Made by a program: the position numbers and the translations under genes. Below are positions 214 through 12,674 of a stretch of 12,674 nucleotides of DNA, piece by piece (position 1 is the first letter of the stretch; each line of letters opens with the position of its first letter). The notes below the pieces were generated by a model. That model had not been told where the DNA came from and did no database searches. It was given only the letters and a program-made list of their open reading frames with translations. Source of the stretch: Chloroflexota bacterium (GTDB lineage Bacteria; Chloroflexota; Anaerolineae; B4-G1); the NCBI GenBank assembly GCA_003648085.1, contig QMOC01000013.1, forward strand, positions 1-12,674, in the 5' to 3' direction.

Positions 214-242
214 TTGACATTTGCCTCATTTGGTTGTATAAT
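214..242 (+). promoter_or_regulatory. Consensus sigma-70 promoter for the IclR gene
   Basis: TTGACA (214-219) and TATAAT (237-242) are separated by exactly 17 bp, a perfect match to the vegetative promoter consensus. Transcription would start near 249, giving a leader of about 90 nt before the GTG start at 340. A promoter this strong needs a repressor to be controllable, in line with the operator-like repeats beside it. It may drive the whole 340-12240 block, since no other obvious promoter is seen until 12326. Confidence 0.85.
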
Positions 243-244
243 AG

Positions 245-282
245 TGTTGCGTACAGGGAACAATGTTGCGTAATGCGCAACA
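245..282 (+). promoter_or_regulatory. Operator-like repeats, probable IclR-family binding site
   Basis: TGTTGCGTA occurs at 245-253 and again at 264-272, 19 bp apart. The second copy is the left half of a near-perfect palindrome, TGTTGCGTAATGCGCAACA (264-282), whose halves match at 8 of 9 positions around a single central base. The first copy overlaps the predicted transcription start and the palindrome lies just downstream, so bound protein would block the promoter. IclR-family proteins commonly bind palindromes of this length next to their own genes. Assignment to the adjacent regulator is inference from position. Confidence 0.65.
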
Positions 283-339: not shown

Positions 340-1128
340 GTGTCGCAAGGACAGGTAGTCAAGTCGGTAAGGCGCGCTGTTGCTATCCTCCGTTCCTTCT
401 CTCTCGGAGAGCCAGAACTGAGTGTCACCCACCTCAGCCGAAGGCTGAACGTCCACAAGAGCACAGTCTCACGCCTGCTCTCCACGCTGGAAGCGGAAGG
501 CCTCGTTGATCGCAATCCCGAGACGGGGTGTTATCGCCTGGGTGTAGGCCTCATAGAACTGGCCGGCCTGGTGGTGCTTCACAGAGACCTACGGCAAGCA
601 GCGCGCCCGCTGCTACGCCAATTGGCCGACCAGACCCAGGAGACGGTGAACCTGGCGGTTCGTGACGGCAACGAGGTGATTAACATCGAACAGGTGGTGC
701 CCCGCGACCGGCGTGTATTGAACATCGGCTGGGTGGGACGCCGTACTCCTCTGCACGCCTCTTCCACCGGCAAGGTGTTGCTGGCCTACTTGCCGGAGGC
801 GGAACTGAATGCCTTGATTCAGAATCCGCTACCCCGCTTCACCGAGTATACCATCACCGACGCTCAGGTCTTGCGCGCCGAGTTGGCACTAGTGCGCCAG
901 CGGGGATATGCCACCGGGCTGGAGGAACTGGAGAACGGTCTGAATGCGGTAGCCGCGCCTGTCCGCGATCACACCGGTCAGGTGATCGCCACTGTTAGCG
1001 CGGCAGGGCCGTCCTATCGTTTCTCCAGAGAGCATATTAAGAAGGAAGCGGCGGCGCAGGTGATTGCCTGCGCAGAGCAGATTTCGCGCGCGCTTGGCTT
1101 TGCTCGGACGGGCGAGACAGAATCATAG
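340..1128 (+). CDS. IclR-family transcriptional regulator
   Basis: This is a full-length (262 aa) regulator of the IclR family. An N-terminal winged helix-turn-helix spans about residues 8-70, with the recognition helix near 39-54 (HKSTVSRLLSTLEAEG). An IclR effector-binding domain fills about 85-250, including the characteristic 'RTPLHASSTGKVLLAYLP' segment and a late 'GL.ELENGLNAVAAPVRD' segment. The GTG start at 340 is chosen because AGAGG lies 6 nt upstream and the protein begins directly before the domain. The gene follows a consensus promoter flanked by palindromic half sites, so autorepression is likely. It is the first gene of a block for uptake and demethylation of a quaternary amine, so its ligand is probably a substrate or product of that pathway. 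The ligand cannot be read from the sequence. Confidence 0.93.
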   Translation: MSQGQVVKSVRRAVAILRSFSLGEPELSVTHLSRRLNVHKSTVSRLLSTLEAEGLVDRNPETGCYRLGVGLIELAGLVVLHRDLRQAARPLLRQLADQTQETVNLAVRDGNEVINIEQVVPRDRRVLNIGWVGRRTPLHASSTGKVLLAYLPEAELNALIQNPLPRFTEYTITDAQVLRAELALVRQRGYATGLEELENGLNAVAAPVRDHTGQVIATVSAAGPSYRFSREHIKKEAAAQVIACAEQISRALGFARTGETES

Positions 1129-1151
1129 CGCGGCCTATCGCCGCAATCAAC

Positions 1152-1207
1152 GTAGGACAAGATGCCATCTTGTCCCACAAGATTCTCGCGGACAAGGCAA
1201 ATCTTGT
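1152..1207 (+). repeat. Leader with four alternating ACAAGAT/ATCTTGT copies, two hairpins
   Basis: The 7-mer ACAAGAT and its reverse complement ATCTTGT alternate: 1157-1163 (forward), 1167-1173 (reverse), 1177-1183 (forward) and 1201-1207 (reverse). Neighbours form a hairpin with a perfect 9-bp core (1155-1163 with 1167-1175, 3-nt loop) and another with an 8-bp stem (1177-1184 with 1200-1207). Copies 2 and 3 could instead pair with each other. The element fills the gap between the regulator gene and the permease gene and ends 13 bp before the AGGAGG ribosome binding site. It could be an RNA switch, an attenuator or simply a dispersed repeat. Confidence 0.6.
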
Positions 1208-1231
1208 AGGGCAATTCTATAGGAGGATAAG

Positions 1232-2644
1232 ATGCTGGGGGAGCTATTTGCCAGTTGGATGAAGGTACTGACGCAACCCAACGTCGAGACCTTTGAGGCA
1301 GAGAAACAGGTCGCCAATGCCTCCAAATTGCTGGTCGCTCTCCTGCTTGCCGGGCTGGTGACCGGGTTGACCACGATACCCATAGGGAGAGAGCCTGTAT
1401 CTACGCTCTTGAGCATAGGGACGACCATGCTCACCGTCGTCGCCGACTTCGTGGTCATTGCACTCATTCTATTCGTTATTGTCAAGATCGTAGGCGGGAC
1501 AGGCAGTTTTCTCACACACTGCTATCTGTTGTCGCTCCCAGCGGCGCCGCTCATCGTTATCGCCTCCCTGTTTGGCCGTGACGGTCTGGCAGCCGTCATT
1601 CTGGACCCACTGGCCCCGTTGGGGCTTGGGCGCGTCATTCCAATCCTGTTGGGCATCTATGGCGTCTTTCTACTGCTTCTGGCCTTGCAGGCCGCTCACG
1701 GGCTGAGGGCCAGCCACGCGGTCAACGTGGTTTTGATAGCGCTGGCTATTTGGGCAGTTTTGGACGTGGCGGCTATGTTCGTCGCCGGCGCTGATAACAT
1801 TCTGACCAAGACAGTGCGATTTATGAGTGCCAACAGCGAGCAACTACTGGAGCAGGCTATCTCGCACGTCTGGCTGGTGATCTTCTCTATGCTCATCGCC
1901 ATCGTACTGGGAGTGGTGGCGGGGATACTCATTACCTTGCCGCCTCGGCGCCCGCGTCCTTCCCATCTTCTGCTTCTCCTGCCCCTGGCTCTCTTCGTCT
2001 TTGTTTACCTGGGCGCCACGGGGACTTTCGGGCAGCCACTGATGCACTCGTTGAAGGCCATCATCCCCCGGGCGCAGGGGGTTGGGCTGACGGGGGCTGC
2101 GCTGACAGTGCTTTTCTATTTGCTGTTCACCTTCGGAGAGCGGGCAGCCGACCCGGTGCTTTACGCAGCAGGGATTATGCTGACCTTCCCCAGTATCGGA
2201 TTGTTCGGGCTCCTTATTCCTCTCTTCGGCATCGGCTTCATAAACGCGGCAGTGGCGCTGATCCTCTACGCCCAGTTGCCTATCCTGCGCAACACCTACA
2301 CGGGCATCAAGGATGTCCCTTCTGCTATCATCGAAGCCGGCCGGGGTATGGGGATGACGGAGTGGCAAATTATGTACAAGGTAAAGTTACCCATGACCGT
2401 GCCGGTCCTCATGGCTGGCATCAGAGTTTCGATGGTCATGATCGTGGGCATCGCTGCGATCGCCAAACTGATCGGCGTCACCTGTCTGGGCAAGTATATC
2501 TTCGACGGCATTGGCCGTGGTAGTGACCCGATGGTCATCGCCGGTGCCATAGGCGTCTCGATCTTTGCCCTGTTGATAGACGGTTTACTGGGCTGGGCCC
2601 AGAAGAGACTTACACCGGCCGGCCTGCGGGAACGTTCCGCCTGA
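1232..2644 (+). CDS. OpuC-type ABC permease with an N-terminal Yip1-like domain
   Basis: At 470 aa this is about twice the size of a normal OpuC/ProW permease. Residues about 10-190 hold a five-helix hydrophobic domain preceded by 'LTQPNVETFEAEKQ', which resembles the Yip1 family. Residues about 205-460 are a binding-protein-dependent permease. Its EAA loop (IIEAGRGMGMTEWQI, 366-380, continuing to KLP at 385-387) contacts the ATPase, and the segment 'LTFPSIGLFGLLIPLFGIG' (317-335) is typical of OpuCB/OpuCD proteins. Between the first permease helix (about 212-237) and that segment lies an extra stretch of about 65 residues (241-304) with two more hydrophobic helices. A strong AGGAGG lies 5 nt before ATG 1232. 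With the ATPase and second permease downstream, this would form a heterodimeric importer for betaine-like compounds. The role of the Yip1-like part is unknown. Confidence 0.88.
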   Translation: MLGELFASWMKVLTQPNVETFEAEKQVANASKLLVALLLAGLVTGLTTIPIGREPVSTLLSIGTTMLTVVADFVVIALILFVIVKIVGGTGSFLTHCYLLSLPAAPLIVIASLFGRDGLAAVILDPLAPLGLGRVIPILLGIYGVFLLLLALQAAHGLRASHAVNVVLIALAIWAVLDVAAMFVAGADNILTKTVRFMSANSEQLLEQAISHVWLVIFSMLIAIVLGVVAGILITLPPRRPRPSHLLLLLPLALFVFVYLGATGTFGQPLMHSLKAIIPRAQGVGLTGAALTVLFYLLFTFGERAADPVLYAAGIMLTFPSIGLFGLLIPLFGIGFINAAVALILYAQLPILRNTYTGIKDVPSAIIEAGRGMGMTEWQIMYKVKLPMTVPVLMAGIRVSMVMIVGIAAIAKLIGVTCLGKYIFDGIGRGSDPMVIAGAIGVSIFALLIDGLLGWAQKRLTPAGLRERSA

Positions 2645-2676
2645 TCATCTGTCTCTGGCGAAGAGGAGAAGTGATT

Positions 2677-3795
2677 ATGATCAAACTAGAGCATGTGACC
2701 AAGATTTATCCGGGCCAGACAGAGCCTGCGGTGAACGATCTCTCCCTGGAGGTGCCGGATGGGGAGATTTGCATCCTGGTTGGGCCGTCTGGCTGCGGTA
2801 AGACCACCACGATGAAGATGGTCAACCGCTTGATTGAGCCCACCAGCGGCAAGATTTACGTCGAGGGGCAGGATGTGATGCAGATGGACCCCATCCAACT
2901 GCGCCGCAGCATCGGCTACGTCATCCAGGAGATTGGCCTCTTCCCGCACATGACGATCGCCGAGAACATCGGTACGGTGCCGAAGTTGTTAGGCTGGGAC
3001 GATGCGCGCATCGCGCGGCGGGTGGACGAACTTCTGGAGTTGATGGGGATAGAACCCGCTGAGTATCGCGACCGCTATCCCCGCGAGCTCTCGGGCGGTC
3101 AGCAGCAGCGCATCGGTGTGGCGCGCGCCATGGCGGCGGACCCCCACGTCATGCTGATGGACGAGCCCTTTGGAGCCATTGACCCCATCACCCGCGACCG
3201 ACTGCAGAACGAGTTTCTGCGTCTGCAGCAGAAGATTCGCAAGACAATTATTTTCGTCACCCACGACATCAACGAAGCGATTAAGATGGGCGACAAGATC
3301 GCCATCTTGAACGTCGGGGGGATTCTGGAGCAGTATGGCTCGCCGAGCGAGATTCTCTCTCACCCCGCCAATCCGTTCGTGGAAGATTTTGTGGGGGCTG
3401 ATCGAGCCTTGAAGTGGCTCAATCTCGTGCGCGTGGAAGAGGTGATGGACCAGCATCCCCCGCTGATCTTCGATACTCAGAGCGTCCGCGAGGCAAGGCA
3501 GTTCATGCAAGAGAGAGGCCTGGATTTCGTCTACGTCATCGGCGCAGACCGGAGCCTGAAGGGCTACGTGAACGCCCGGGACCTGGAGGGCCAACAAGGG
3601 TGGGTGGATGCGTTTCTCACTCCTGCCGCGGTCAGCATCCAACTGGGCACCAGCCTGAGGGACACGCTGTCGGAGTTGCTGGCCTCTGACTACCGGACGG
3701 CGTGTGTGGTGGATGAGGAGCAGCGAGTGCGTGGGCTCATTCAACTGGACGCGATCCAGGAAGCCCTCAGCGCCAGGAAGGGGGGTGAGAGATGA
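2677..3795 (+). CDS. opuCA: OpuCA/ProV-type ABC transporter ATPase with CBS domains
   Basis: A 372-aa ATPase for quaternary-ammonium import. Walker A is GPSGCGKTT (36-44), the Q-loop lies around Q84, the signature is LSGGQQQR (138-145), Walker B is VMLMDEP (158-164), the D-loop is GAID (166-169) and the switch histidine is H196. The C-terminal part (about 253-365) carries two CBS-like units, as in OpuCA. In characterised homologues this region senses ionic strength or cyclic di-AMP. ATG 2677 is preferred over GTG 2671 because GAGGAG (2663-2668) is 8 nt from the ATG but only 2 nt from the GTG. The stop overlaps the next start (ATGA at 3792-3795), so the two are translationally coupled. Presence of CBS domains suggests that osmotic gating may be kept even though the neighbours point to catabolism. 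Confidence 0.94.
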   Translation: MIKLEHVTKIYPGQTEPAVNDLSLEVPDGEICILVGPSGCGKTTTMKMVNRLIEPTSGKIYVEGQDVMQMDPIQLRRSIGYVIQEIGLFPHMTIAENIGTVPKLLGWDDARIARRVDELLELMGIEPAEYRDRYPRELSGGQQQRIGVARAMAADPHVMLMDEPFGAIDPITRDRLQNEFLRLQQKIRKTIIFVTHDINEAIKMGDKIAILNVGGILEQYGSPSEILSHPANPFVEDFVGADRALKWLNLVRVEEVMDQHPPLIFDTQSVREARQFMQERGLDFVYVIGADRSLKGYVNARDLEGQQGWVDAFLTPAAVSIQLGTSLRDTLSELLASDYRTACVVDEEQRVRGLIQLDAIQEALSARKGGER

Positions 3796-4583
3796 CGGCT
3801 ACTTCGTTCGGACGCCTTCGCACATCGAACGTGACCCCGGTGCTTAAAGAAGTCCTGGGTTGGGTGGTAGTCCCTATCCTGCTGGCTATCGTGGTGGTGC
3901 TGCTCTACAATCAGGTCATCTACCGCATCGAGCCGGAGACGATGACATACCGCATGTTCTTCGATCAAACCGGCCGGCCTGCCAAACTTACCCGCTATAT
4001 CCTGCTCCATATGGAAGTCGTTTTCGTCTCCGCGCTGTTGGCCGTGCTGACCGCGGTCCCGGCCGGCATTCTCATCACGCGGGAGGGATTCCGTGACTTC
4101 GCCCCTCTAATCCTGGGCGTGGCCAATATCGGCCAGACGGTGCCCAGTATGGCCATCCTGGGCCTTTCCATGGCCTTTCTGGGCATCGGTTTTAAGCCCT
4201 CCATCTTTGCCCTGTGGTTCTACTCCCTGTTGCCCATCGTGCGCAACACGGCCACCGGCATTGACGAGGTGGATCGGGCCGTTATCGAAGCGGCGCGAGG
4301 CATGGGGATGACCAAGCGGCAGATTCTGTTCCGCATCGAGTTACCACTGGCTCTCAACATCATCTTCGCCGGTATCCGCACGGCGGTGGTGATCAACGTA
4401 GGCACGGCGGCTCTGGTCACCTTCATCGGCTGGCCCACCCTGGGCCATCCTATAGCGGCCGGCCTCCGTGTGAGGCGGACTGATATGGTCGTCGTGGCAT
4501 CAATCCTGATTGCGGTGTTCGCCATTGGTCTTGACTTCATTATGGGGAAAGTTCAGCAATTGCTGGCACCGCGCGGCGTTTAG
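3792..4583 (+). CDS. OpuC/ProW-type ABC transporter permease
   Basis: A 263-aa inner-membrane permease. A first hydrophobic helix spans about 20-42, followed by a loop, then the permease core from about 66 to 255. The core contains 'ANIGQTVPSMAILGLSMAFL' (111-130) and the EAA loop 'IEAARGMGMTKRQILFRIEL' (165-184), which docks on the ATPase. Its EAA loop is nearly the same as that of the fused permease upstream, as expected for the two halves of one heterodimer. The start overlaps the ATPase stop by 4 nt, and GGGGGTGAG just upstream serves as ribosome binding site. Unlike the upstream permease it has no Yip1-like domain and no inserted helices, so it is close to the usual family layout apart from its longer N-terminus. 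Confidence 0.92.
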   Translation: MTATSFGRLRTSNVTPVLKEVLGWVVVPILLAIVVVLLYNQVIYRIEPETMTYRMFFDQTGRPAKLTRYILLHMEVVFVSALLAVLTAVPAGILITREGFRDFAPLILGVANIGQTVPSMAILGLSMAFLGIGFKPSIFALWFYSLLPIVRNTATGIDEVDRAVIEAARGMGMTKRQILFRIELPLALNIIFAGIRTAVVINVGTAALVTFIGWPTLGHPIAAGLRVRRTDMVVVASILIAVFAIGLDFIMGKVQQLLAPRGV

Positions 4584-4707
4584 CCTGGCGGCGGCCACTC
4601 GATCTCGCGGCCTGGATTCGGGACACGAAGGAGGTGATGTCTGATTAGCAGAAGCGAAAGCCTGTATCCGAGTGAGTATCACTAATCATGTAGTAAGGAG
4701 GAATGAG

Positions 4708-5652
4708 ATGAGAAGGCTATTCAGTGTTCTAAGTCTGCTGGTCGTCGTGGCAATGTTGCTGATGGCCTGTGGCAAGACGGCTCAGGAAAAAGAGATCACC
4801 GTCAGTTCCAAGAACTTCACCGAGCAGTACCTTCTGGGGTGGATGACCGTCCTGGCCCTCCAGGACGCCGGCTTCACCGTCAACAATAAGGTTGACCTGG
4901 GGGGCACAAGTGTCAACCGGGAAGCCCTGGAGTCCGGCGAAGTGGATCTCTATTGGGAGTACACCGGCACGGCCTGGATGGTCCATCTGGGGCACGAGGA
5001 GGCCATCACCGATCCCCAGGAGTGCTACGACAAGGTCAAGGCCGAGGATGCCGCCAACGGCCTCGTCTGGCTGGAGATGGCTCCCTTCAACGACACCTAC
5101 ACGCTGATGATGACCAAGGAAGCCGGCGCCCAGTACGGCGTCCAAAAACTCTCCGACTTGCCCGCCTACCTGGAACAGAACCCCGACGCGATCCTCTGTT
5201 CTGACGAAGAGTGGACCGTGCGACCTGACGGCTACCCGGCATTGCAGGAAAAGTACGGCTTTGCCTTCAAGGAGGAGAATGTGCGCACGATGGAGATTGG
5301 GGTGACCTACAAGGCGCTGCGGGACGGTGAGTGTGACCTGGCCATGGGCTTTGCCACCGACGGCCGCATCGCCGCCTGGGGCTTGTTCAACCTGGAGGAT
5401 GACAAGCAGTTCTTCCCTGTCTACAACCCCGCACCGGTAGTGCGCAAAGACGTGCTGGACAAGTACCCCGAGATCGCGGATATTCTGTCTCCTATTGCTA
5501 AGGCCTTGGATACCGATACTATGACCTACCTCAACAGCTTGGTGGATGTAGGCGAGGATCAGGAACTGGACACCGGCGACGAGCAGGATCCCAAGGATGT
5601 GGCCTGCAACTTCCTGCTGGAGAACAATCTGATTAAGAGTTGCGGCGACTAG
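4708..5652 (+). CDS. OpuC-type glycine betaine/osmoprotectant-binding lipoprotein
   Basis: A 314-aa substrate-binding protein. Residues 1-21 form a lipoprotein signal with lipobox LMAC and lipidated Cys21, so it is anchored to the outer face of the membrane. The mature part is an OpuAC domain: 'ITVSSKNFTEQYLLGWM' (30-46), 'GGTSVNREALESGEVDLYWE' (65-84), 'NDTYTLMM' (128-135) and 'GFATDGRI' (214-221). Aromatic residues in these motifs (Tyr82, Trp83, Tyr85, Tyr131) are candidates for the cage that holds a trimethylammonium group. ATG 4708 is chosen because AAGGAGG (4695-4701) lies 6 nt upstream and the signal peptide begins there; an in-frame ATG at 4672 would add 12 residues before it. The exact ligand (glycine betaine, choline, carnitine, proline betaine) cannot be told. 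The mature domain carries five cysteines after Cys21, more than usual. Confidence 0.93.
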   Translation: MRRLFSVLSLLVVVAMLLMACGKTAQEKEITVSSKNFTEQYLLGWMTVLALQDAGFTVNNKVDLGGTSVNREALESGEVDLYWEYTGTAWMVHLGHEEAITDPQECYDKVKAEDAANGLVWLEMAPFNDTYTLMMTKEAGAQYGVQKLSDLPAYLEQNPDAILCSDEEWTVRPDGYPALQEKYGFAFKEENVRTMEIGVTYKALRDGECDLAMGFATDGRIAAWGLFNLEDDKQFFPVYNPAPVVRKDVLDKYPEIADILSPIAKALDTDTMTYLNSLVDVGEDQELDTGDEQDPKDVACNFLLENNLIKSCGD

Positions 5653-5681
5653 CACATCTGTCAGGATGAGATGTAACGCGA

Positions 5682-5710
5682 GGGCCGGCCGCGGTTGCCG
5701 TGGTCGGCCC
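5682..5710 (+). other. GC-rich hairpin between binding protein and methyltransferase genes
   Basis: Thirteen paired positions (5682-5694 with 5698-5710, two of them G-U in RNA) close on a TTG loop. No T-tract follows, so this is not a classical intrinsic terminator. It lies 30 bp after the binding-protein stop and ends 11 nt before the AAAGGAG ribosome binding site of the next gene. It could protect the upstream transcript end, be a processing site, or adjust expression between the transporter genes and the enzyme genes. Confidence 0.6.
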
Positions 5711-5736
5711 AAGCGTTGCGCAAAGGAGTGAAGGCT

Positions 5737-6582
5737 ATGGAGACCATCCTCAAGGGAACAAAGGAGGTCGTTCGCATCGCTCCTGACCGCCCTACGGTGC
5801 TCATCGGGGAGCGTATCAACCCCACCGGGCGCAAGCGGCTGGCGGCCGAGTTCGTCGCGGGCAACGTCGAGATCGTCAAGGACGAGGCGCTGGCTCAGGT
5901 CGCTGCCGGTGCCGACGTGATTGATGTGAACGTGGGCGCGGCCGGCGTGGACCAGATGGCGCTGCTGCCCCGCGCCGTGGAGATGGTCCAGGAGGTGGTG
6001 GAGGTTCCCCTCAGCATTGACACGCCAGACCCCGCAGCATTGGCTGCCGCGCTGAAAGTCTACCAGGGCAAGCCGCTGGTCAACTCGGTCAACGGCGAGG
6101 AGAAGAACCTGAGCCGCGTCCTGCCGCTGGTGGCCGAGCACGGGGCAGCGGTCATCGGCCTGTGTATGGACGACGAGGGCATCCCTGATGACCCACACAG
6201 ACGGCTGGAGATCGCCCTCAAGATTGTCGAGCGGGCCGAGGCTTTGGGCATCCCCCGCGAGGACGTCCTGATTGACTGCCTGGCCCTGACCGTCGGCGCC
6301 GATTCCAAAGCCGCGCTGGTCACGCTGGAGGCCATCCGCCTGGTCAGGGCCGAACTGGGCGTCAACATGACGCTGGGGGCCAGCAACGTCTCCTTCGGTC
6401 TGCCGGACCGTGAGGTGCTCAACCGGGCGTTCCTAGCCATGGCCATCTGGGAGGGCGTCAATGCTCCCATCGTCAACGCGGCGCGGGTCAGACAGACTGT
6501 GCTAGCGGTGGATGTGCTCCTGGGGCGAGACGAGTTCGCGACGAGGTACATCAAGCACTATCGCAAGAGGCAGAATAAATGA
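5737..6582 (+). CDS. Pterin-binding methyltransferase (MtgA/AcsE/MetH-like)
   Basis: A 281-aa TIM-barrel protein of the pterin-binding family that moves methyl groups between a corrinoid protein and tetrahydrofolate. 'VLIGERINPTGRKR' (21-34) matches the start of the MetH/AcsE pterin-binding domain. 'DVNVG' (63-67), 'SIDT' (93-96) and 'VNSVNGE' (115-121) follow in family order. 'GASNVSFGLP' (214-223) contains the conserved Asn (N217) that helps activate the folate N5 in AcsE-type enzymes. ATG 5737 is chosen over an in-frame ATG at 5695 because AAAGGAG (5722-5728) lies 8 nt upstream and the earlier start lies inside the hairpin. It overlaps the corrinoid gene by 4 nt (ATGA), a strong sign of a working pair. 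The closest characterised role is MtgA of Desulfitobacterium glycine betaine metabolism, forming methyl-tetrahydrofolate. Confidence 0.9.
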   Translation: METILKGTKEVVRIAPDRPTVLIGERINPTGRKRLAAEFVAGNVEIVKDEALAQVAAGADVIDVNVGAAGVDQMALLPRAVEMVQEVVEVPLSIDTPDPAALAAALKVYQGKPLVNSVNGEEKNLSRVLPLVAEHGAAVIGLCMDDEGIPDDPHRRLEIALKIVERAEALGIPREDVLIDCLALTVGADSKAALVTLEAIRLVRAELGVNMTLGASNVSFGLPDREVLNRAFLAMAIWEGVNAPIVNAARVRQTVLAVDVLLGRDEFATRYIKHYRKRQNK

Positions 6583-7235
6583 GCGACATACTCAAGCAAA
6601 TCGCGGAGAAACTATACGACGGTGAAGATGATGCGGTTGCCGAACTGACGCAAAGGGCACTCGATGAAGGGCTGACGCCGGCAGAGGTGCTCAACGGCGG
6701 GCTCCTCGCCGGGATGGACCGGGTCGGCGTGGACTTCCGGGACGGCGAGTTATTCGTGCCCGAAGTGCTCATCGCCGCGCGTGCGATGCACGCTGGCATG
6801 GCCATCCTGCGCCCGTTGTTGACCGAGAGTGACGTGCCGTCGGCCGGCAAGGTGGTCATAGGCACCGTCGAGGGCGACTTGCACGACATCGGCAAGAACC
6901 TGGTGGGCATGATGCTGGAGGGCGGCGGCTTCGAGATCGTTGACCTGGGCACTGATGTCCCTCCCGATAGGTTTATCGAGGCGATCAAGATGGAGCATCC
7001 AAACCTCATCGGCATGTCGGCGCTGCTGACCACCACTATGCCGAGCATGAAGCGCACAATTGACGCGCTGATGGAAGCAGGTCTGCGGGACACTGTGCGG
7101 GTGATGGTCGGTGGTGCTCCGGTCACCCAGACCTTCGCCGACGAGATTGGCGCCGATGGCTATGCGCCCGATGCGGCTTCAGCGGTCGAACTGGCGCGCT
7201 CGCTGGCAGGGCAGATAAATAAGTCAGATGGATGA
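6579..7235 (+). CDS. Corrinoid (B12-binding) methyl-carrier protein, MtgC/MttC-like
   Basis: A 218-aa protein with the two-part layout of methyltransferase corrinoid proteins. A helical cap domain occupies about residues 1-88, including 'GLLAGMDRVGVDFRDGELFV' (41-60). A Rossmann-like B12-binding domain follows from about 90. The cobalt-ligating motif DLHDIG (100-105) gives His102 as lower axial ligand, and 'GMSALLTTTMPSMK' and 'VMVGGAPVT' follow as in MtbC, MttC and MtgC. It would accept a methyl group from one or both MttB proteins encoded downstream and give it to the folate enzyme encoded just upstream. It is the only corrinoid protein in the window although there are two MttB genes. Its start overlaps the upstream stop and its end overlaps the next gene by 8 bp. 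Confidence 0.94.
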   Translation: MSDILKQIAEKLYDGEDDAVAELTQRALDEGLTPAEVLNGGLLAGMDRVGVDFRDGELFVPEVLIAARAMHAGMAILRPLLTESDVPSAGKVVIGTVEGDLHDIGKNLVGMMLEGGGFEIVDLGTDVPPDRFIEAIKMEHPNLIGMSALLTTTMPSMKRTIDALMEAGLRDTVRVMVGGAPVTQTFADEIGADGYAPDAASAVELARSLAGQINKSDG

Positions 7236-8292
7236 GATGTACGAGTTTCGCTGGCCTACCAAAACGCTGGTCGGCGTGGGGCTGATCGAGCGGGTCGGCG
7301 AGTATATCAACCCGCCAGCCACTGCGGGGCGGCTGCTGCTGGTGGCACCGCGGGAGGAGTGGGCCAGGCCACTGGTGCGGCGCATCGCCACGCAACTGCG
7401 CGAGGTGGGCTGGGAGCGGGTGGAAACCTTCACCGAGGTGGAGCCCAACCCCTCGTGGGAAACGGTGGCGCGTGGAACGGAACGAGGGAAAGCGGCCGGC
7501 GCGAACGCGGTGCTCGCCGTCGGCGGCGGCAGCGCGATGGACGCGGGCAAGGTCATCGCCGAGCGGTGCGGTGCTGATTTCCTCTGCACCGTGCCGACGA
7601 CGGCAGGCACCGGCGGTGAGATCTCCCCCTGGGCGGTCATCAGTAACCTCGACACACGGGAGAAGGACAGCGTCGTGGCTAAATGGCCCGACGTGGCGCT
7701 GCTCGACCCGGAACTGACGCTGGGCCTGCCACCCAAGACTACCCTCTTCACCGGCATAGACGCCTTCATCCACGGCCTGGAGGCCTACATCTCCAGCGCG
7801 GCCACGCCGATTACCGATGCCCTGGCCTTGGGCGGAGCGGAACTGATCGCCTCTCACCTGCGAGTGGCAGTGGAACACGGCGACGATCTGGAGGCCCGCA
7901 GCGCGATGCTGCAGGGCAGCCTGCTCACAGGCGCCGCGATGCTGCACGCCGGGCTAGGGCTGATGCACGCCATCGGCAACGTGACCGGCGGGCTGTACCA
8001 TGAACTACCCCACGGGCTGATCCTGATACGCTGTATGGACCCGGTCCTGGAGTACAACCGGCCAGCGCTGGGGCGGAAGATCACGCGGCTCGAACCGCTG
8101 GTGGACCGGGTGCGAGCGGATGCCGAAGCGCTTCTTGCGCGGTTCGAGATTGCCTCGGTGAAGGTCGCTGAGGCGGATCTGCCGCTGCTGGCCGAACGGG
8201 CGGTCGCGAACGTAAATGCCAAGACCAACCCTCGCCCTGCGACGCGGAATGAGGTCGAGACGCTGGCGCGGCAGGCTTTCGTGATCCGGTGA
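7228..8292 (+). CDS. Iron-containing (type III) alcohol dehydrogenase
   Basis: A 354-aa Fe-ADH-family oxidoreductase. The NAD(P)-binding glycine motif is AVGGGSAMDAGK (97-108), followed by 'TVPTTAGTGGEIS' (121-133). The metal ligands line up as Asp178 and His182 (GIDAFIH), His247 (GLMH) and His262 (LPHG). The position that in FucO is a second conserved histidine four residues after the third ligand is Asn251 here. The start overlaps the corrinoid gene by 8 bp, so it belongs to the same transcript; ATG 7237 is an alternative start three codons later. In this setting it may oxidise a hydroxylated quaternary amine such as choline or an alcohol left after demethylation, or reduce an aldehyde. The true substrate is not known. 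Confidence 0.88.
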   Translation: MDEMYEFRWPTKTLVGVGLIERVGEYINPPATAGRLLLVAPREEWARPLVRRIATQLREVGWERVETFTEVEPNPSWETVARGTERGKAAGANAVLAVGGGSAMDAGKVIAERCGADFLCTVPTTAGTGGEISPWAVISNLDTREKDSVVAKWPDVALLDPELTLGLPPKTTLFTGIDAFIHGLEAYISSAATPITDALALGGAELIASHLRVAVEHGDDLEARSAMLQGSLLTGAAMLHAGLGLMHAIGNVTGGLYHELPHGLILIRCMDPVLEYNRPALGRKITRLEPLVDRVRADAEALLARFEIASVKVAEADLPLLAERAVANVNAKTNPRPATRNEVETLARQAFVIR

Positions 8293-8314
8293 TGGTATCG
8301 AAGAGGCTGAATGC

Positions 8315-8332
8315 CTGACCGGCGCAGGTCAG
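8315..8332 (+). other. Small hairpin before the first MttB gene
   Basis: CTGACC (8315-8320) and GGTCAG (8327-8332) form a perfect 6-bp stem around GGCGCA in the short gap after the alcohol dehydrogenase gene, just before GAGGAG at 8334-8339. It has no T-tract. It may slightly affect access to the ribosome binding region or be chance. Confidence 0.35.
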
Positions 8333-8359
8333 CGAGGAGAGATGGAGGGACAAGCAAGC

Positions 8360-9838
8360 ATGACATCATCAAGCATGCGACGGAAACGGTCGGGCCCCGG
8401 CAAGGGCCTGATCGGCGGGCAGTATAAACCGCTGACCGATGAGCAGGTAAAGCAAATCCACAAAGCGTCGCTGACGGTCCTAGCGCAGACGGGGGTACAG
8501 GTGGAGGAGCCGGAGGCGCTGCGGCTGTTTAAGGAGGCCGGGGCAGATGTGGACGGCAATCGAGTGCGGCTGCCACAGTCCCTCGTCGAGGACGCGGTAG
8601 ACAAAGCACCCTCGCGCGTGGTGCTGGCGGGCCGTGACCCGGAGCACGACCTGATCCTCGAGGGAGCGCGGGTCCACATCGGCACCGGTGGCGCGGCGTT
8701 GCAGGTGCTTGATCTGGAGACGGGCGGAATCCGCAAGGCGGTGCTCCGGGACGTGGCTGATATGGCCCGCATTGTGGACGCGCTGGGCAACATCCACTTC
8801 TACCTCATACCCATCTACCCCACCGACCTGCCCGAGGAGACGGTGGAGATCAACAAGTATTACGCTGCGCTGGCGAACACCACCAAGCACGTCCAGGCTG
8901 GCGTCTACACCATCCAGGGCATCCGCGACGTGGTGGAGATGAGCGAGCGCATTATGGGGGGCGCCGAGCCGCTGCGTGAGCGCCCTATCGTCTCCTTCAT
9001 CACCAGTTGGATGGTCAGCCCCCTCAAGTTCGCCACCGACGTGACGATGCTGCTAATCGAGATCTGTCGGCAGCGCATGCCGGTCGTTCTCTCAGCGGCG
9101 CCGATGGCCGGCTCGACCGCGCCGGTCACGTTGGCCGGGATGCTGGCGCAGTTGAACGCCGAGCAGCTGGCCGGGCTGACGCTGACCCAACTGGTCCAGC
9201 CCGGCTGTCCCGTCCTCATCGGGCCCATCCCTGCCACAGCCGACATGCGCAGCGGCAAGTACCTGGGCGGCTCGGTGGAGTTGGGGCTGTGCAACGCCGC
9301 CATCACCCAACTGGCCCACTTCTATCACGTGCCCATCTACAACAGCGCTGGCATGACCGAGGCCAAGATTCCGGACATCCAGGCGGGCATCGAGAAGGCC
9401 CAGTCGGTCATCCAGGTCGCGCTGGCCGGGGCCAACTTCATCCACCACGCCGCCGGAATGCTGGAGGATATGTCCACCATTGCCTACGAGCAGTTTGTGA
9501 TTGACAACGAACTGTTGGGGCTGGCGATGCGCGCTGTGCGCGGCATCGAGGTCAACGATGACACGCTGGCACTTGATGTGATTGACCGCATTGGTCCTGG
9601 GGGACACTACCTGATGGACGAACACACGCTGCGCTACATGCGTACCGAGCACTACTATCCCTCGGCCGTCTTCGACCGGCAGGGGCGTCAGATGTGGGAG
9701 CAGGCCGGTGGTACCGACGCCTGGGCTCGGGCCAAAGATGTGGCGCGCCGCATCCTGGCGGAGCACCGGCCGGAGCCACTAGACCCGGCCACGGATGCCT
9801 GGATTCGAGAGCGTTTCGCATCTTCGCTGGTGCCGTGA
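8360..9838 (+). CDS. MttB-superfamily methyltransferase, non-pyrrolysine (first copy)
   Basis: A 492-aa TIM-barrel protein of the trimethylamine methyltransferase (MttB) superfamily. Family features run throughout: the N-terminal 'GGQYKPLTDEQVKQIHKASL' (19-38), the central 'MTEAKIPDIQAGIEKAQ' (332-348), and 'HHAAGMLED' (362-370) followed by a conserved 'QFVIDNELLGLAMR' helix. The reading frame has no in-frame amber codon, so it cannot carry pyrrolysine and belongs to the MtgB-like branch that demethylates quaternary amines. ATG 8360 is preferred because GGAGGG (8344-8349) lies 10 nt upstream; ATG 8342 has GAGGAG only 2 nt away and would add six residues. It would methylate the upstream corrinoid protein. 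The substrate (glycine betaine, carnitine, proline betaine or another) cannot be read from the sequence. Confidence 0.92.
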   Translation: MTSSSMRRKRSGPGKGLIGGQYKPLTDEQVKQIHKASLTVLAQTGVQVEEPEALRLFKEAGADVDGNRVRLPQSLVEDAVDKAPSRVVLAGRDPEHDLILEGARVHIGTGGAALQVLDLETGGIRKAVLRDVADMARIVDALGNIHFYLIPIYPTDLPEETVEINKYYAALANTTKHVQAGVYTIQGIRDVVEMSERIMGGAEPLRERPIVSFITSWMVSPLKFATDVTMLLIEICRQRMPVVLSAAPMAGSTAPVTLAGMLAQLNAEQLAGLTLTQLVQPGCPVLIGPIPATADMRSGKYLGGSVELGLCNAAITQLAHFYHVPIYNSAGMTEAKIPDIQAGIEKAQSVIQVALAGANFIHHAAGMLEDMSTIAYEQFVIDNELLGLAMRAVRGIEVNDDTLALDVIDRIGPGGHYLMDEHTLRYMRTEHYYPSAVFDRQGRQMWEQAGGTDAWARAKDVARRILAEHRPEPLDPATDAWIRERFASSLVP

Positions 9839-9861
9839 ACGCTCATCTGAGGAATGGAATC

Positions 9862-10743
9862 ATGAAGGTCGGCCTGGCCCAGGTGGACTGCTCACTGGGC
9901 GACGTGGAGGCCAATTTGAGCCGGGCTCTACGCTACGTCCGGCAGGCCAAAGAGCAAGGGGTGGATCTCCTGATCTTCCCCGAACTTAGTCTGACCGGCT
10001 ACGATTTGGGAGAACAGGTGGCCGAGGTAGCCATGACCCTCGAGGCTCAGCCCCTGGCGACCTTACAAGCGGAGAGCCGCGCCCTCTCCCTCGTCGTCGG
10101 CTTCGTGGAGAAGAGCACCCACCATCGGCACCACAACGCGGCCGTCTATCTCGAGGACGGACAGGTTCGCCACCTGCACCGCAAGCTCTACCTGCCCACC
10201 TATGCCGTTTTCCAAGAGGGCAGGCGCTTCGTACCGGGAGATAGCATCGAGGCTTTCGACACCCGGCATGGGCGCATGGCCATCCTTATCTGCGCCGATG
10301 CCTGGATTCCCCCGGTGGCCTACATTGCCGTACAGGATGGGGCCTCGCTGCTGCTTCACCCCGCGGCCAGTTCTAAGCAGGGCCTGGGCGAATACCTGGA
10401 CCTCCCGACCTGCTGGGAAGGCATCAACCGCGTTTTCGCCCAGCTTCACGGGGTCTACGTGATCTTTGTCAACCGCGTGGGTCGAGAAGGGGATCTGCAC
10501 TACTGGGGCGGCTCAGAGGTCATTGACCCTCGAGGCCGGGTGGTGGTCAAGGCACCCTACTTCGAGGAAGGATTATTCAGCGGAGAGATCCACCTGGAGA
10601 TGGTTAAGGAGCAACGAGCGGCTGCTCCTTTGATGCGTGACCCACGTCTAGGGCTTCTCATCAGAGAGATGCAACGAGTGCAAGACAAACTCAGGAAGGA
10701 GAACAGCAATGTCAAGTGGAGGCCGGATCGCCGGACAGTATGA
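9862..10743 (+). CDS. Carbon-nitrogen hydrolase (nitrilase superfamily amidase)
   Basis: A 293-aa single-domain hydrolase that would cleave an amide or nitrile. The catalytic Glu-Lys-Cys triad is visible: Glu41 in FPELSLTGY (39-47), Lys108 in HRKLYLP (106-112) and Cys144 in ILICADAW (141-148). The cysteine is followed by Ala-Asp-Ala-Trp rather than the Glu-Asp or Tyr-Asp that is common in many branches. ATG 9862 is chosen because GAGGA (9849-9853) lies 8 nt upstream and the family's beta-strand (MKVGLAQVD) starts there; the frame is open further upstream but only over the end of the first MttB gene. It sits 23 bp after one MttB gene and runs into the fragment before the second, so it is probably part of the same pathway. 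An amidated betaine, or an amide made during its breakdown, would fit. Confidence 0.88.
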   Translation: MKVGLAQVDCSLGDVEANLSRALRYVRQAKEQGVDLLIFPELSLTGYDLGEQVAEVAMTLEAQPLATLQAESRALSLVVGFVEKSTHHRHHNAAVYLEDGQVRHLHRKLYLPTYAVFQEGRRFVPGDSIEAFDTRHGRMAILICADAWIPPVAYIAVQDGASLLLHPAASSKQGLGEYLDLPTCWEGINRVFAQLHGVYVIFVNRVGREGDLHYWGGSEVIDPRGRVVVKAPYFEEGLFSGEIHLEMVKEQRAAAPLMRDPRLGLLIREMQRVQDKLRKENSNVKWRPDRRTV

Positions 10744-10792
10744 GCCTCTCAAGTCAGAGGAGATTGAATTGATCTGGAGGTTAGCCCTGTGA
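10709..10792 (+). pseudogene. 27-codon ORF resembling an MttB N-terminus, stub or leader peptide
   Basis: ATG at 10709, with AAGGAG (10696-10701) 7 nt upstream, opens a 27-codon frame that ends at TGA 10790-10792. Residues 5-27 align without gaps to residues 16-38 of the first MttB protein, with 10 of 23 identical, including GQY and PL; at DNA level the first 21 bases of this stretch match at 18 positions. The next gene has its own complete N-terminus, so this is an extra copy of the family's opening motif. It overlaps the end of the amidase gene by 35 bp and the GTG start of the second MttB gene by 4 bp. The likeliest reading is the remnant of a third mttB gene that lost the rest of its length. 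Because its ribosome binding site is intact, it may still be translated and couple translation of the next gene. Confidence 0.6.
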
Positions 10793-12240
10793 CTCAACAA
10801 CTGCCCGTTCAAACACTGCAACCGATGATCCGCGTCCTGTCCGACGAGCAGGTGCGGGCGATCCACTACGCCACGCTGGAGATCCTGGCCAAGACCGGCG
10901 TGGAGATGCAGGACCCTCAGGGACGCGAACTGTTGCTCGAGGCCGGGGCCTGGGAATCCAATGGCCGCATCAAGATACCGGAAAACCTGGTCACCGACGC
11001 CATCGCCTGCGCGCCCTCGCGCATCCCCATGTACGATAGGCTGGGCAACCTGACGATGCCGCTGGAACTGGGCAAAGTCTTCTTCGGTTCTGGCTCCGAT
11101 ACCACCTTCACGTTGGATGTGAAGACCGGTGAACGCCGTCGGACGATGGCTCAGGACGTTGAGGACATCGCTCACCTGTGCGACGCACTGGAGAATATGG
11201 ACTTCATCATGTCTATGGGCAATCCCTCTGACGTGCCACCCGATGACCTCTACATCCACGAGTTCATCCGCATGATCCGTGGCTCGGTCAAACCCATCGT
11301 CTACACCGCCAAGAACCGCGCCGATATGGAGGACATCTATCGTATTGCGGTAGCCGTGGCCAGTGATGAGGAGGCGTTGCGCGAAAAGCCATTCCTGTTA
11401 CTCTACGCAGAGCCCATCTCCCCCTTGCTGATCCCCGAGGAGTCGCTCCAGAAGCTGACCTTCTGCGCTGAAAAGGGCATCCCGGCATCTTACCCGCCCT
11501 CGCCTAACACCGGCGGCGGCGGACCGATCACGCTGGCGGGCGCGTTAGCGTTGGGAAACGCGGAGTGTCTGGTCGGGCTGATCATCTCCCAACTGATCCG
11601 CCCCGGCACGCCGTTCCTCTACGGGATGAACACGGCGGCAATGGATATGAAGAGCACCATCGTGAGTTATGGCAGCCCGGAGTGGCCGCTGGGCATGATG
11701 GCGCAGATGGACCTGGCCCGCTACTACAATCTCCCCGCGTGGTCGGCCGGCGGTGCCAGTGACAGCAAAGTGGTGGACGCGCAGGCGGGCATCGAGATGA
11801 CCTTCTCCATCCTGACCAACTTCCTGGCGCGTGCCACGCTGGTTCACGACGTAGGCTATATCGAGTACGGCTCCACCTCATCAATGGAGGCGCTGGTGAT
11901 CGCCGACGAGATCATCCGCATGACCCGTTTCCTGGTGGACGGGGTCGCCGTCAACGAGACGACGCTGGCGCTCGACGCCATCGCCCGCGTCCGGCCGGGC
12001 GCGGGATTCCTGGCGGACGACCATACCCTCGACAACTGGAAGTGGGCGCAGTGGCGGCCGGCCTTGATTGACCGTAACCGCTACGACCGCTGGGTGAAGT
12101 TGGGCAGGAAGGACATGTTCACGCGAGCCAATGAGCGTGCGCGAGAGATCCTGGAGGAGCACCAGGTACCGCCGTTGCCGGAAGAGGCCGAGGGGGCGAT
12201 CGCGGAGGTGCTGGCGGAGCGGGCTGCGGCGGGGGGGTAG
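10789..12240 (+). CDS. MttB-superfamily methyltransferase, non-pyrrolysine (second, divergent copy)
   Basis: A 483-aa MttB-superfamily protein, clearly homologous to the first copy but from another branch. The N-terminal 'VLSDEQVRAIHYATLEILAK' (16-35), 'SDSKVVDAQAGIEMTFS' (324-340) and 'LVHDVGYIEYGSTSSMEALV' (351-370) are family motifs. The last of these is the form common in the wider MttB family, whereas the first copy has HHAAGMLED here. No in-frame TAG is present, so it lacks pyrrolysine. The GTG start at 10789 is supported by GGAGG (10776-10780) 8 nt upstream and overlaps the stop of the small ORF before it. It probably demethylates a substrate other than that of the first copy, or the partly demethylated product, using the same corrinoid protein. 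A terminator-like hairpin follows about 40 bp after its stop. Confidence 0.92.
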   Translation: MTQQLPVQTLQPMIRVLSDEQVRAIHYATLEILAKTGVEMQDPQGRELLLEAGAWESNGRIKIPENLVTDAIACAPSRIPMYDRLGNLTMPLELGKVFFGSGSDTTFTLDVKTGERRRTMAQDVEDIAHLCDALENMDFIMSMGNPSDVPPDDLYIHEFIRMIRGSVKPIVYTAKNRADMEDIYRIAVAVASDEEALREKPFLLLYAEPISPLLIPEESLQKLTFCAEKGIPASYPPSPNTGGGGPITLAGALALGNAECLVGLIISQLIRPGTPFLYGMNTAAMDMKSTIVSYGSPEWPLGMMAQMDLARYYNLPAWSAGGASDSKVVDAQAGIEMTFSILTNFLARATLVHDVGYIEYGSTSSMEALVIADEIIRMTRFLVDGVAVNETTLALDAIARVRPGAGFLADDHTLDNWKWAQWRPALIDRNRYDRWVKLGRKDMFTRANERAREILEEHQVPPLPEEAEGAIAEVLAERAAAGG

Positions 12241-12494: not shown

Positions 12495-12674
12495 ATGTCA
12501 AACCGGATAGACTTCAAAGCCGAGGCAGAGGCGCTGCGCGGGCAACTGGTCGCCTGGCGGCGCGACTTTCACGCGCACCCGGAACTGGCTTTCCAGGAGC
12601 GTCGCTCGGCCAGCATCATCGCCGACCGGCTGCGCGAATTGGGCTACCAGGTGCAGATGGGCATTGCGACCACC
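12495..12674 (+). CDS. M20-family amidohydrolase/peptidase, N-terminal part
   Basis: ATG at 12495 opens a frame that runs to the right edge (60 codons). 'RRDFHAHPELAFQE' (about residues 22-35) is the hallmark N-terminal motif of the M20D aminoacylase/amidohydrolase branch, and a helix with 'LRELGYQV' follows. Purine-rich GGAAGAGG just upstream is the ribosome binding site. Members cleave N-acyl or carbamoyl amino acids and need a divalent metal; the metal ligands lie beyond the window. It has its own promoter after a terminator, so its link to the methyltransferase block is only by position. Confidence 0.88.
   Translation, partial: MSNRIDFKAEAEALRGQLVAWRRDFHAHPELAFQERRSASIIADRLRELGYQVQMGIATT

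Follow-up and report, generated by a model that had tools for sequence, protein, structure and literature searches.

The eleven genes of contig QMOC01000013.1, a stretch of 12,674 bp that was analysed as a whole and is referred to here as the window, probably form a quaternary-amine:tetrahydrofolate (THF) methyltransferase operon, judging from gene families and gene order. Because the window is one entire contig, the operon may extend past its ends. The source is a metagenome-assembled genome whose nearest named relatives are Anaerolineae (Chloroflexota). Profile matches identified all eleven genes, which lie on the + strand between positions 340 and 12240, and the core function would be of a known kind, present here in a two-paralogue variant with pocket signatures of its own. 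The original prediction, made from the letters alone, of quaternary-amine uptake coupled to folate methyl transfer by MttB proteins that do not use pyrrolysine is well supported by the gene families and by enzymes encoded elsewhere in the genome, and its gene identities and single strand are confirmed. Its mention of many overlaps goes too far: given the gene starts adopted in this analysis, 3 of the 10 gene junctions overlap (−4, −4 and −8 bp) and the other 7 are gaps of 23 to 103 bp.

In the proposed route, the IclR regulator would control the OpuC/OsmF-type importer, which would take up a compound with a trimethylammonium group; glycine betaine or another betaine is the likeliest candidate. 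The imported compound, and perhaps also the product of its first demethylation, would give up a methyl group to the corrinoid protein by the action of MttB2 and MttB1, and the MtgA-like enzyme would hand this group on to THF. The cobalt would be kept reduced by an AcsV/RamA-type activase encoded elsewhere in the genome, and methyl-folate would feed the genome's own Wood-Ljungdahl enzymes. The iron-containing alcohol dehydrogenase (Fe-ADH) and the CN-hydrolase may be lineage-specific additions on the substrate or product side. The features of the window are as follows.

214..242, + strand: sigma-70-type promoter-like site TTGACA-N17-TATAAT ahead of iclR, 12 of 12 matches
266..280, no strand assigned: palindrome TTGCGTAATGCGCAA, just 3' of the −10 element; candidate operator, a putative function
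340..1128, + strand: IclR-family regulator (PF01614, 178 bits; PF09339, 53 bits)
1232..2644, + strand: ABC importer permease 1 with an N-terminal Yip1-like membrane domain (PF00528, 65 bits)
2671..3795, + strand: ProV/OpuCA-type ATPase with a CBS domain (TIGR01186, 383.5 against a cut-off of 326.6; PF00571)
3792..4583, + strand: OpuC-type permease 2 (PF00528, 83 bits)
4672..5652, + strand: substrate-binding protein of the OpuAC family (PF04069, 195.9 bits); the start may be ATG 4708
5737..6582, + strand: MtgA-like corrinoid:folate methyltransferase (NF005719, 287.9 against a cut-off of 259); likely start ATG 5737
6579..7235, + strand: corrinoid protein of the MtgC/MtbC type (TIGR02370, 224.4 against a cut-off of 215.3)
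7228..8292, + strand: Fe-ADH (PF00465, 110.9 bits); accessory, not conserved
8342..9838, + strand: MttB1, a non-pyrrolysine MttB with Met338 at the pyrrolysine (Pyl) site, codon ATG 9353 (PF06253, 410.5 bits)
9862..10743, + strand: CN-hydrolase of the nitrilase superfamily (PF00795, 138.9 bits); likely start ATG 9862; accessory, not conserved
10789..12240, + strand: MttB2, a non-pyrrolysine MttB with Ala323 at the Pyl site, codon GCC 11755 (PF06253, 306.3 bits)

Methyl transfer, uptake and the source genome

PF06253 aligns along the whole of both MttB proteins, far above its cut-off of 25. Pyrrolysine use was rejected for both: neither gene has an in-frame TAG at the Pyl site, which is an ATG or a GCC codon, and TIGR02369 (trimethylamine MttB), the sole NCBIfam match of the two proteins, scores 477.9 for MttB1 and 420.4 for MttB2 against a cut-off of 525. 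As a separate observation, the Rfam model PYLIS_3 matches four MttB1 genes, at 9353-9452 of the window and in three related loci (L004 1844-1943, L006 7475-7574 and L009 10979-11078; the L labels of loci are ours). Since the match in the window begins at the Pyl-equivalent ATG, the model appears to detect similarity among mttB coding sequences rather than pyrrolysine use.

The corrinoid protein exceeds the cut-off of TIGR02370, which describes methyltransferase cognate corrinoid proteins, and its best match, the glycine-betaine-specific MtgC model NF047996, reaches 241.9 against a cut-off of 370. For the MtgA-like enzyme, the model that is exceeded (NF005719) is a domain-level one and not specific for MtgA. 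Elsewhere the source genome encodes the catalytic subunit of an anaerobic carbon monoxide dehydrogenase (CODH; TIGR01702, 598.8 against a cut-off of 478), formate–THF ligase (Fhs), FolD, a second MeTr-like enzyme and two RACo-type activases above the Pfam cut-off. With these enzymes present, methyl-folate is probably usable by the source genome, its carbon going to either acetate or CO2. A further MttB gene, the third and a distant one, lies ahead of a gene for a corrinoid protein on another contig of the same genome (C102; locus L003, 1498-3684); this corrinoid protein is 45% identical to that of the window, and the pocket signature of the MttB differs from those of MttB1 and MttB2.

The quaternary-amine importer set, of the OpuC/OsmU type, is complete, with the ProV-type ATPase, two permeases and the OpuAC binding protein encoded together. 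The binding protein is nearest to precursors of acetylcholine and nicotine sensors and to OsmF/ProX proteins, and it scores 201 on the model for the glycine betaine binding protein OsmF (NF049931), whose cut-off is 400. Its residues Y131, Y201 and F215, which we take to be cage positions, are invariant in four aligned sequences, and EYTGT and RPDG are invariant in the three that are readable there. In permease 1 the Yip1 match lies just below the cut-off (27.7 against 28.6 bits). This fused permease had been put forward as a mark of an unusual pathway, a view that was not supported, and its novelty was rejected, the Yip1-permease form being widespread in Chloroflexota. The best 120 matches of permease 1 (one of them the query itself) include 117 that cover 90% or more of its length and 29 with a precomputed call of Yip1; in all 13 that give an organism, it is from Chloroflexota.

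Pocket residues and conservation of MttB1 and MttB2

Among PDB entries, MttB1 is closest to MtgB (E 1e-82), which the accessible text of PMC9842639 gives as entry 2QNE; entry 9YCE has the same sequence where aligned. Docking to MtgB led to Y94, N199, R309 and H345 being proposed as glycine-betaine contacts (PMC6855144, in the excerpt available). In an alignment of 118 MttB sequences, whose MtgB numbering agrees with all five published letters, these columns read G-S-Y-H in MttB1 and S-E-W in MttB2, with the His one column off, against Y-N-R in MtgB. Both patterns are conserved. Columns Y94-N199-R309-Pyl-H345 are G-S-Y-M-H in 12 of 14 close MttB1 rows, and columns Y94-N199-R309-Pyl are S-E-W-A in 17 of 19 close MttB2 rows and in all 5 more distant pair members; S-E-W alone is found in 18 of 19 and again in 5 of 5. 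A quick LG+G4 tree of 105 rows, for which 13 of the 118 rows (from nine loci) had been removed for thinning and in which the deepest forks are weak, recovered MtgB, MttB1 and MttB2 in different clades, of 5, 46 and 17 rows respectively, with support values of 100, 97 and 100. From pocket residues and tree together, MttB1 and MttB2 are MttB enzymes but not MtgB, and they appear to define two subfamilies, which differ in their conserved pocket residues and are often found together in Anaerolineae.

A first scan of named genomes gave 29 loci. Throughout, L074, L075 and L076, which duplicate the contigs of L004, L010 and L011, were not counted. In nine of the ten loci with an MttB1 at least 74% identical to that of the window (hereafter close loci), MttB2 follows MttB1 on the same contig and strand, within 1.6 kb in eight and at 7 kb in one. 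The interval between the two is free of genes in seven of these loci (24 to 148 bp), holds an MmgE/PrpD gene in L007 and is filled by other genes over 7 kb in L012. In the tenth locus (L008) a CYTH-domain gene comes after MttB1, and the contig ends 1.1 kb past MttB1. As the close loci had been picked by their MttB1 matches, this pairing count is biased on its own, and a reverse search was made with MttB2 across 396 genomes of the class at E 1e-150. It returned 21 genes in 19 genomes. Thirteen of these, including that of the window with the amidase in between, adjoin an MttB1-type gene (at least 50% identical), three are cut by contig ends (L176, L180 and L181), and five have no close MttB1-type neighbour (L174, L175, L177, L178 and L179). 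One of the five, L175, comes from a genome listed as 100% complete and has MtgA, corrinoid protein and MttB2 together without MttB1, and the only MttB1-like gene of L179 is 35% identical and lies 1.6 kb from MttB2. An obligatory MttB pair was rejected on these grounds; MttB2 seems to be the more independent member and MttB1 its frequent partner.

Genes for the corrinoid protein and/or MtgA adjoin MttB genes in twelve loci. A more distant pairing (MttB2 48-52% and MttB1 40-42% identical), again with MtgA and corrinoid genes, was found in five loci on contigs labelled Dehalococcoidia, Chloroflexi, Deltaproteobacteria and Pseudomonadota (L025, L026, L027, L028 and L030); L027 also has a RACo-type activase, and in L030 the MttB1 partner lies about 40 bp downstream of MttB2. 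The conserved core, as far as gene neighbourhoods indicate, would be MttB2, usually with MttB1, together with the corrinoid protein and MtgA.

Around this core, the G+C content of the window is 0.57-0.60 over the first 5 kb, which hold the regulator and importer, and 0.64-0.67 near the corrinoid, Fe-ADH and MttB1 genes (6000-9000). Promoter-like sites number 4 against 2.9 expected, and the only perfect one is that at 214..242. Judged by eye, the start of an open gene resembling an M20 peptidase occupies positions 12495-12674, and a GC-rich palindrome-like stretch lies between MttB2 and this gene. An M20 gene, assigned by Pfam, adjoins the corrinoid gene in L077.

Accessory genes and alternative readings

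The original prediction had taken the Fe-ADH and the amidase as possible marks of a pathway for an amide- or hydroxy-betaine, to be checked by their linkage to mttB in related genomes. The close loci speak against this: the CN-hydrolase is present in 0 of 10, several of their contigs being only 4-5 kb long, and an intact Fe-ADH in 0 of the 9 in which its place before MttB1 is visible. Of these nine, L008 holds a C-terminal remnant and the other eight have no Fe-ADH there; the contig of L014 begins inside MttB1. Further afield some linkage of Fe-ADH to mttB was seen. Homologues occur near mttB in 4 of 66 other loci (874 kb), namely the remnant in L008 and genes in L089, L094 and L103, against 0.59 loci expected (from 152 matches over 60 genomes of the class, 227 Mb in all; Poisson P 0.003), an expectation taken from class genomes while some of the 66 loci are from other phyla, with loci that are not independent and a test that is post hoc. 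The proteins of L089, L094 and L103 belong to other subfamilies (32-36% identical) and to more distant Anaerolineae genomes. The Fe-ADH of the window is an open frame that keeps its family motifs, whose role we assume from general knowledge. Its identification as the iron-dependent choline dehydrogenase GbsB was rejected, with a score of 186.5 on NF053866, far below the cut-off of 550.

A theme of alcohol or amine oxidation appears to recur near some mttB genes, with differing enzymes. Homologues of zinc alcohol dehydrogenase (Zn-ADH) occur in 7 of the 66 loci and DAO (sarcosine-oxidase-type) genes in 8, and DAO genes also lie near MttB2 in L178 and L179. Homologues of aldehyde ferredoxin oxidoreductase (AOR) were seen in 6 (L083, L089, L094, L104, L106 and L107). 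Positions 118-16096 of L089 (genome G643) hold, in one run, two MttB, Fe-ADH, CN-hydrolase, SoxA-like and SoxG-like genes, two DAO oxidases and AOR, together with a gene for an aminoacyl-tRNA editing-domain protein; the run resembles a combination of MttB with an oxidative pathway for N-methyl-glycine.

A search for the CN-hydrolase in the other 47 genomes of the order gave no match at E 1e-50, and homologues 39-49% identical were found in 129 of the other 395 genomes of the class. Among 17 loci read from the 130 genomes with an amidase match, nadE lies within 1.5 kb in 11 and at 2.1 kb in one more, and the CN-hydrolase family therefore resembles the glutaminase partner of NAD synthetase. The window protein is 44-49% identical to the 11 nadE-linked proteins; it has no adjoining nadE, and the NAD-synthase matches of its genome are on other contigs. 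It belongs to a small subfamily, the nearest proteins being 84, 63, 58 and 56% identical and the next 51% or less. Among the 66 other mttB loci, one (in G643) has a CN-hydrolase, against 0.08 expected.

We judge it unlikely that a betaine carrying a hydroxyl or amide group is degraded through steps to which the Fe-ADH and CN-hydrolase are dedicated, the one oxidising the alcohol and the other hydrolysing the amide, whether ahead of demethylation or following it. Such steps would agree with two open genes, 23-49 bp from mttB genes, that keep family motifs with the meaning we presume for them, with the overlap of Fe-ADH and corrinoid gene, with the excess of Fe-ADH near mttB and the G643 run, and with the Zn-ADH and AOR counts, which suggest alcohol or aldehyde oxidation near mttB. 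Against them stand the close loci, the other genomes of the order, the low score on the choline dehydrogenase model and window genes that include no aldehyde dehydrogenase; moreover, one of the four Fe-ADH cases is a remnant and the others are distant, as is the L089 CN-hydrolase (39% identical). An amide-betaine pathway read from the gene set is weakened by the close loci, and the proposal of a complex betaine, though unsupported, retains some probability from the distant association of Fe-ADH with mttB. Because accessory genes beside mttB vary between genomes, the substrate should not be inferred from a single operon. The substrates of the MttB pair might instead be amines that lack a carboxylate, such as choline, trimethylamine, tetramethylammonium or similar, although we doubt it. 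This would account for the loss of the MtgB-type Arg and Asn and the gain of Glu199 and Trp309 in MttB2, and it would suit an MttB1 pocket (G-S/C-Y) resembling the G-C-Y of pyrrolysine MttB, the conserved S-E-W of MttB2 and the trimethylamine MttB model as the only NCBIfam match of both, below its cut-off. However, the characterised non-pyrrolysine MttB enzymes use acidic quaternary amines, and before phosphocholine the substrates known for the superfamily were carboxylic acids with a quaternary amine group (PMC12155760, as far as its text was available), which favours a betaine. The DAO genes near mttB would likewise suit N-methylglycines.

An importer for osmoprotection only, with the methyltransferase genes adjoining by chance, seems very improbable. 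OpuC/OsmF-type importers are usually osmotic, and in L010 and L011 the MttB pair is found without an importer nearby, but in the window the genes share one strand and are closely spaced, and L006, L009 and L078 likewise have importer genes next to the pair, as L007 has the end of a binding-protein gene. For the quaternary-amine:THF methyltransferase operon that we prefer, several points have to be set on the other side. The best PDB match of MttB2 is the trimethylamine enzyme that uses pyrrolysine (6e-72), with MtgB close behind (1e-70); both MttB proteins lack the Y94, N199 and R309 docked to glycine betaine and fall outside the MtgB clade, and the missing Arg309 argues against simple equivalence with MtgB. 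The second MeTr-like enzyme scores 209.3 against a cut-off of 259, and the two activases reach 586.7 and 451.1 on the AcsV model, whose cut-off is 800. To these are added the five MttB2 genes without a close MttB1 and the draft state of the source genome (3.05 Mb, 83% complete, 559 contigs).

Within the preferred operon, a two-step demethylase, in which one MttB would demethylate the quaternary amine and its partner a tertiary product such as dimethylglycine, strikes us as quite unlikely. If it were so, one of the two would be a corrinoid-dependent tertiary-amine demethylase without pyrrolysine, working through a Glu-Trp or Ser-Tyr pocket. MttB proteins without pyrrolysine are numerous, and substrates are known for few of them; the available part of PMC12155760 counts six superfamily members with one. 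The substrates of MttB1 and MttB2 would tell which osmolytes become methyl-folate in these bacteria, and whether tertiary amines are demethylated without pyrrolysine.

Comparison with known systems

Methyltransferase genes of this kind have been reported for Anaerolineae in general (PMC11264602, in the text accessible), and a literature search limited to titles and abstract openings found no description of a Chloroflexota mttB operon with an amidase or alcohol dehydrogenase. The MtgABC system of Desulfitobacterium hafniense shares with the window the MttB fold family, a cognate corrinoid protein, MtgA and the transfer of methyl groups to THF; the window differs in having two paralogues instead of one, without the MtgB contacts and clade membership. 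The MthB/MthK choline system of Eubacterium limosum (PMC12155760, in part) offers a likeness in that an accessory enzyme modifies the substrate before demethylation by MttB, but that enzyme is a kinase, and the window genes include none. The window amidase is homologous to the CN-hydrolases paired with nadE in Anaerolineae, which presumably form a split glutamine-dependent NAD synthetase, and differs from them in having no nadE beside it.

By gene content, the closest arrangement found is that of the multi-MttB clusters of strain DCMF ('Ca. Formimonas warabiya'), Sporomusa ovata and 'Ca. Frackibacter', as described in the portion of PMC9768040 available. The DCMF cluster encodes two corrinoid proteins, three MttB, a 668-aa protein, MtgA and BCCT carriers, and increased in abundance on glycine betaine; its first half is syntenic in Sporomusa ovata and 'Ca. 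Frackibacter'. The authors, in that portion, were undecided whether separate MttB proteins serve glycine betaine and dimethylglycine. The equation of the 668-aa protein with the N-methylhydantoinase A named in the text is our own. Homologues of the latter occur in the related mttB loci L009, L079, L084, L086 and L087, and adjoin the corrinoid gene in L079, L086 and L087. Compared with DCMF, the window has an ABC importer instead of BCCT carriers and no hydantoinase, and adds Fe-ADH and CN-hydrolase; what the two have in common, on the account in PMC9768040 as available, is more than one MttB, one or more corrinoid proteins, an MtgA-type methyltransferase and betaine transport.

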